From contig NC_009142.1 in assembly GCF_000062885.1 (NCBI RefSeq), positions 5,259,584 to 5,323,583 of the forward strand: 64,000 nucleotides of DNA, in the 5' to 3' direction. The stretch comes from Saccharopolyspora erythraea NRRL 2338 (GTDB lineage: Bacteria; Actinomycetota; Actinomycetes; Mycobacteriales; Pseudonocardiaceae). The notes below the pieces were generated by a model. That model worked only from the letters and a program-made list of their open reading frames with translations, was not told the DNA's origin and ran no database searches. Positions within the stretch are counted from its first letter, which is position 1, and every line of letters begins with the position of its first letter. The translations under genes and the position numbers were made by a program. Below are positions 57,431 to 57,877 of this stretch, piece after piece.

Positions 57431-57877
57431 GCCCGAGCCCGTGAGTCTCTTTCGGTCGCTATGGGGGACCTCTATTCGTGCCCTGTCGTTACCCACGGCC
57501 TTTGCCGACTTGCGACTGGTTCGGCGGGGTGCGGATACGCGGTCTCCACCTGCAAGGGAGGAGCTCTGTCCTCTTCCCGTTGACCTGGCTCCGCCCGATC
57601 AGGTCGGGTCAAGGGGGCACCCTCGTGCGTGTGGGAGGTTGCGCAGGGTTTGCCCCCTTGACGCGACCTGATGCCCCTCGAGGAGGTCGACGGGAAGAGG
57701 ACTGCCCCGAGCGAACCGCAGCATTCGAACTACCGTTCCCGGAGACCTGCCGGGGCCCTGGAACGGCGAGCGCCCCAGTTCTGAGCGGACTCGGCGGCCG
57801 GCCACGAAGGCTGCATTCGGCCTCGTCTTGCACGGTGTGACCGGTAGACCGCGGCTGACCATGGCTATCCTGGGACC
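57431..57877. other. gene-free spacer after the aco operon
   Basis: This stretch of about 450 bp holds no convincing gene. The first 130 bp are less GC-rich than the surroundings. The middle holds the 135-bp hairpin element described separately. The last 30 bp form the promoter of the GNAT gene: TATCCT at 57866-57871 followed by 6 bases and the ATG. Confidence 0.6.
57568..57702. repeat. 135-bp inverted-repeat (long hairpin) element
   Basis: The ends GTCCTCTTCCCGT (57568-57580) and ACGGGAAGAGGAC (57690-57702) are perfect complements apart from nothing. The inner arms AGGTCGGGTCAAGGGGGCA (57601-57619) and TGCCCCCTTGACGCGACCT (57651-57669) pair with a single mismatch. Between them each side has diverged 20-base segments. 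The 31-base loop is CCTCGTGCGTGTGGGAGGTT plus GCGCAGGGTT-type sequence. It is far longer than a terminator; a mobile miniature element or structured RNA is possible. Confidence 0.75.

Follow-up and report, generated by a model that had tools for sequence, protein, structure and literature searches.

The window analyzed here is a 64,000-nucleotide stretch of the Saccharopolyspora erythraea NRRL 2338 chromosome, located at 5.26–5.32 Mb, and it bears a long hairpin at 57568–57702 on the + strand, approximately 140 nt 3′ of the last aco gene in the window. The hairpin, which had been predicted at this place, folds far beyond chance, as the minimum free energy of 57558–57712 is −102.3 kcal/mol against −67.9 kcal/mol (sd 4.7) for shuffled sequences (z = −7.37), and 0 of 200 shuffles were as low. 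The outer stem (P1) consists of two 19-nt arms, arm 1 at 57568–57586 and arm 2 at 57684–57702, with a single mismatch that is a G·T pair on the + strand; the outermost 13 bp, described as perfect in the original prediction, are all paired in the window copy. Concerning the inner stem (P2), the single mismatch was counted correctly, and its arms (57598–57619 and 57651–57672) measure 22 nt instead of 19. P2 encloses a variable loop of 31 nt (57620–57650), which is weakly conserved among copies and orthologues, and it is separated from P1 by 11 nt on either side, in agreement with the equal-length segments expected there.

Alignment of the genome copies and of loci from the family showed that the hairpin makes up just the initial portion of a unit of about 230 nt (57546–57778, +), hereafter the head; the 135-bp unit proposed originally contains the hairpin and ends too early. 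The sequence common to all copies begins about 22 nt 5′ of arm 1 and extends through the end of a further hairpin with a GGCGA loop, and a covariance model of the head (R1) matches the window copy at G000:C1:5317147-5317357 with 173.6 bits. Three features were located on the + strand 3′ of arm 2: an unpaired conserved linker motif, CGAACCGCAGC, at 57712–57722; arm 3, GTTCCCGGAGACCTGCC, at 57735–57751, a near-repeat of arm 1; and the P3 hairpin at 57758–57778, which has an invariant GGCGA loop (57765–57769) and, in the window copy, a weak stem. Across the genome alignment the 3′ end of the unit reads CATCCCGGAGACCTGCC, followed by the hairpin with the GGCGA loop.

We were able to examine the pairing in alignment A1, a sequence-only MAFFT alignment of 25 heads on which R1 was built. 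Standard pairs occupy 96.9% of the cells of P1, P2 and P3 (98.9% in P1 and 97.6% in P2), and both-side changes were found in 24/44 pairs (9/19 in P1 and 12/21 in P2), with 0/500 shuffles reaching any of the five pairing measures. When 71 distinct heads were aligned, two or more Watson-Crick types occurred in 33/40 pairs, although this alignment was made on R1 and hence leans towards the structure. The mismatch cells are strongly one-sided, with 42 G·T against 1 A·C in P1 and P2 of the 25 heads, and 121 against 11 in the 71-head alignment. As such a bias is not to be expected of a cruciform or a duplex site, it indicates that the + strand of the unit acts single-stranded and that the folded form is this one fixed strand, either as RNA or as ssDNA. 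A plain protein-binding palindrome, which was among the identities suggested originally, leaves the bias unexplained.

Arm 3 approximately repeats arm 1 and mostly changes along with it between lineages. Specifically, CATCCCG in arm 1 is accompanied by CATCCCG or CATCCTG in arm 3, CACCCCG by CACCCTG (L084, L090, L093) and TTCCCG by TTCCCG (window) or TTTCCTG (L087), and in genus g21 a wholly unlike arm sequence, CCTCTTCTCCGTTTGGCCT, occurs together with CCCTCTTTTTTGGAGGTCT; locus L075 is an exception to this joint change. Pairing between arm 2 and arm 3 amounts to 79.3% in 28 lineages, compared with 73.5% (sd 0.9) when arms 3 are permuted (0/5000), in a statistic that ignores the kinship of the lineages. 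Since arm 3 co-varies with both arms 1 and 2, arm 2 has two possible and mutually exclusive partners, and both pairings may be in use. Covariation also extends to P2 and to the outer ends of P1, though they lie outside the repeated arm motif. Many copies in actinomycete integrative and conjugative elements (AICEs) carry a T-rich stretch 3′ of P3.

Search of the 8,212,805-bp chromosome (G000) with the 135-bp unit led to 16 further places of 72–84% identity, leaving out one extra row in which the palindrome was read on the opposite strand, and a better query raised the count to about 26 places, including short forms, hairpin deletions and fragments. The original prediction had proposed to look for copies elsewhere in the genome and for compensatory changes in homologues; both are present, the latter strongly, and together they make the element both interspersed and structure-constrained. 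Copies sit behind, between and in front of genes, and their orientation is not fixed. Behind most heads of the S. erythraea genus stands an array of degenerate 55-nt units that occur nowhere except behind such heads; the window copy has no such array. Each array unit to the right of the heads at L013, L015 and L022 carries a TCGAAAA motif and a small stem with compensatory changes, and these arrays change faster than the flanking DNA (72% identity between sister species).

Within Pseudonocardiaceae, BLAST with one S. erythraea copy as query (three candidates scored per genome) gave a match in 96 of 249 genomes, belonging to 32 of 46 genera, and R1 matched 18 of the 20 complete genomes, mostly at 1–4 loci each. 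In an order-level sample of 200 genomes, all matches fell within the family apart from one (G400) of only 42 bits. No Rfam family matched the element, and no match was returned by R1 against pIJ101 or by blastn with three queries, the third possibly off the exact head, against plasmid and phage collections.

The genomic setting of the heads points to mobile elements. Among 64 heads, drawn mainly from genomes without amplified copies, 33 are followed on the 3′ side and the same strand, within 13 kb, by RepSA (PF20199), the rolling-circle initiator of pSAM2 (distance 0.5–11.7 kb); it was found on the opposite strand once and on the 5′ side never, and the remaining 30 heads, several of them on short contigs, have no RepSA nearby. 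By our own estimate, at 1–6 RepSA genes per genome, less than 1% would be linked by chance. Apart from RepSA, the neighbors at several loci are GntR/UTRA repressors (KorSA type), DUF218 proteins, an FtsK-like protein and integrases (among 100 neighboring proteins, GntR in 7 and Phage_integrase in 3; FtsK-like at L143). The RepSA linkage thus makes an AICE the usual home of the module, and the polarity may in part reflect a common AICE gene order. The window copy itself has neither RepSA nearby (both RepSA matches of the genome are at 6.73 Mb) nor GntR/KorSA, FtsK-like Tra or integrase neighbors. At L143 and L144 (G061, G141), two heads of the same orientation are found per AICE locus, 1.4 and 2.8 kb apart. 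Many RepSA-linked heads are followed downstream by a tail hairpin and then TTGATGAAGAAAAGAAACTCTGAACAC; at L078, L090, L093, L095, L102 and others, the tail hairpin GGCGGCCCCGCAGGGGCCGCC precedes CTTGATGAAG, which resembles pC194-type nick sites (CTTGATA), and by this analogy tail hairpin and CTTGATGAAG could form a double-strand origin.

Copy numbers, given as match counts in which some palindromes are possibly counted twice, are about 20 each for S. erythraea and its sister species, 30 each for G021 and G058, and 40 for G063; G099 has at least 7 copies. The copies are alike within one genome and unlike between genera. At least four genera have amplified the element into dispersed repeats. 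In the tree, the dispersed S. erythraea copies are sister to an AICE copy of the same genome (L018), located 11.7 kb from RepSA, and one G063 copy (L196) is RepSA-linked too, at 9.0 kb. The window copy is placed outside the S. erythraea dispersed group, closer to heads of other genera, and in the sister species the end of the aco genes is the same and the DNA behind the operon is different. On these two grounds it is probably a separate arrival, that is, a solitary copy from another sub-lineage than the remaining dispersed copies of S. erythraea. At the G063 loci L195–L201, to the right of the head and about 300–400 nt from its start, a larger GGGGGCGGGGG stem encloses another long palindrome, TCGCCGAGCAGGGTTGTCAAGGC...GCCTTGACAACCCTGGTCGGCGA.

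Most S. erythraea copies are established at orthologous loci in the sister species. Where the pairs align well, identity is 98–100% in the arms and the 3′ module and mostly 90–96% in the upstream flank (40–200 nt), and the fast parts are the linker (~80%), the loop (~75%) and the array (~72%); pooled arm identity is lower because L010/L052, one member of which is a short form, aligns badly. This suggests that the dispersed copies are not plain debris and that they are kept under structural constraint in S. erythraea, while gene conversion among copies may add to the identity of the arms. Long and short forms swap at the same orthologous locus between the sister species (L010/L052, L057/L026), and AGCCC direct repeats flank P2. 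An origin of P2 as an inserted MITE was considered in this respect and rejected, as P2 co-varies across genera; it is thus ancestral, and its loss recurrent.

The interpretation that we favor, with a probability of roughly 50%, is that pSAM2-type AICEs possess a structured non-coding module which acts on a single strand and has spread as repeats, and that the hairpin belongs to one solitary copy of it. The module folds as a single strand into the P1 and P2 hairpin, arm 3 and the GGCGA hairpin, and in the AICE it would act on the strand displaced when the element replicates by rolling circle or is transferred. Its most likely role there would be that of a single-strand (minus-strand) origin (sso), with the exchange of arms 1 and 3 on arm 2 as a possible switch. 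At least four genera would have scattered copies of the folded unit as non-autonomous repeats, and those of S. erythraea would be kept by structural constraint. The fixed polarity upstream of RepSA agrees with a role on the strand that rolling-circle replication displaces, and the multiplication of a folded structure without a promoter speaks for handling at the DNA level.

The module resembles known sso. The sso1 of ICEBs1 is non-coding, has several stem-loops and works in one orientation (PMC4595007), and loss of the sso of pIJ101 leads to accumulation of ssDNA (PMC4170104). Like these loci (sti in pIJ101), the module is non-coding and folds as a single strand with several stem-loops (PMC4170104, PMC4595007), it has an orientation fixed relative to the rolling-circle initiator, and it is borne by integrative or conjugative elements. 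Unlike them, it has a third arm vying for arm 2, sequence conservation throughout the family and tens of solitary chromosomal copies, and neither its sequence nor its model matches pIJ101, which is weak counter-evidence as sso types differ widely. We know of no description of an arm 1/arm 3 exchange as a feature of sso. The identification of the module as an sso proper is tentative and would leave the conservation of many chromosomal copies unexplained. Somewhat less probable is that AICEs of the family carry a conserved three-arm strand-exchange switch acting in cis, of a kind not known from rolling-circle elements; it would have got loose more than once, and dozens of constrained chromosomal sites would be retained because they serve the host or the mobilization of the chromosome.

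Among the alternatives, roughly one third of the probability goes to a structured RNA, as the exchange of arms resembles an RNA switch, in which G·U pairs are expected. Each copy would then be transcribed, and the exchange between arm 1:arm 2 and arm 2:arm 3 would make it an attenuator or a trans-acting AICE sRNA with a chromosomal family of paralogues. The fixed-polarity pairing of a single strand, the many G·U pairs, the two alternative pairings and the T-rich stretch behind P3 all agree with such an RNA, although co-varying pairs are also expected of folded ssDNA, and RNA-seq has revealed many intergenic ncRNAs in S. erythraea (PMC3610266, PMC3827479). However, homology of the repeated unit starts only 5–50 nt 5′ of arm 1 and carries no promoter-like flank, so that a conserved promoter is absent from it, the copies occupy every kind of position relative to genes, and the Rfam search returned no relative. 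The original prediction, which had listed a structured RNA, is borne out in part; the home in AICEs, the third arm and the full length of the unit were unforeseen. Duplex DNA recognition is unlikely. It would make arms 1–3 three sites for an AICE protein (TraB at clt, RepSA or a GntR repressor) and the dispersed copies clt-like, in keeping with the joint change of the three related arms; yet an 11 to 1 excess of G·T over A·C is unexpected for a duplex, and covariation reaches beyond the repeated motif, into P2 and the outer ends of P1. In pMEA300, stf is a transfer region. The clt of AICEs and Streptomyces plasmids is, like the module, a non-coding cis locus of the same element class, and TraB-bound clt-like sites scattered on Streptomyces chromosomes offer a precedent, according to a passage of PMC3218068 that cites Vogelmann et al.; clt is read by TraB as a duplex, whereas the module is constrained as a single strand.

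A family of the REP/RAYT, IS200/IS605 or ordinary MITE type, with ends on which a Y1 or DDE transposase would act to move it, is far less probable. REP, BIME and REPIN sequences with their RAYT are likewise palindromic, intergenic, dispersed, lineage-specific and probably handled as single strands, but their units measure 20–40 nt, about a tenth of the present one, which is moreover conserved across genera within AICEs. Y1_Tnp was absent from G001, G021, G063 and G099, all rich in copies (G000 has one, at 3.0 Mb), and an origin from REP or IS200 was rejected for this reason. Bacterial MITEs (ERIC, RU-type) and MIRU arrays resemble the module as dispersed structured repeats of 100–250 bp, some with tandem arrays comparable to the 55-nt units, which here stand behind the heads of one genus only. 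The MITE-like nature first suggested holds as far as a dispersed repeat is concerned; no terminal inverted repeats were seen at the unit ends in the alignment of genome copies, and the comparison with the sister species gave neither a target duplication nor a clean empty site. Least credible is a terminator or 3′-end stabilizer of the aco operon. The hairpin lies close behind the last aco gene, but no U-tract follows it, the same gene end is followed by other DNA in the sister species, and copies elsewhere lie between divergent genes; the original prediction had also judged it too large and too structured for a terminator. A 3′-UTR element was rejected because upstream genes are of mixed orientation, as taken from a crude gene call, and a chance hairpin because of the shuffles, the further copies and the covariation.

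AICEs have been studied almost only via their genes, and with the module they would gain a conserved non-coding component whose structure can be tested. The module would also tie an AICE cis module to lineage-specific repeat families of antibiotic producers, including the producer of erythromycin. If the dispersed copies still act as single-strand start or transfer sites, they could influence which parts of the chromosome are transferred in conjugation. The availability of three genera with three arm sequences makes direct swap experiments possible.

Some further observations concern the dispersed copies and their surroundings. Their orientation relative to the replication fork has no bias in S. 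erythraea (about 14 to 12 by hand count, with the origin assumed near position 1). Also by hand count, about 23 of the 26 copies are within approximately 2 Mb of position 1, mid-chromosome being avoided, and in G021 none of about 29 copies is located between 3.1 and 6.07 Mb. Insertion sequences were found in or beside several units. At L055:1000-1980 (genome 720960-722074) an IS5-like element, with a 280-aa transposase-like frame assigned by eye, interrupts a short-form copy precisely at its loop and is bordered by TTA on either side, and the same locus of the sister species has a deletion form of the unit. An IS110-like element at L062:800-1760 (genome 3678771-3679769) lies within the 3′ module, between CCGGGGGATGCT and CTGGGGGCGGCGAGCG, and suggests that the structures of the unit may serve as insertion targets. 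Finally, at L012 and at G000:C1:468074-470588, an istB-like gene (IS21-type, by eye) parts the head from its 55-nt array.
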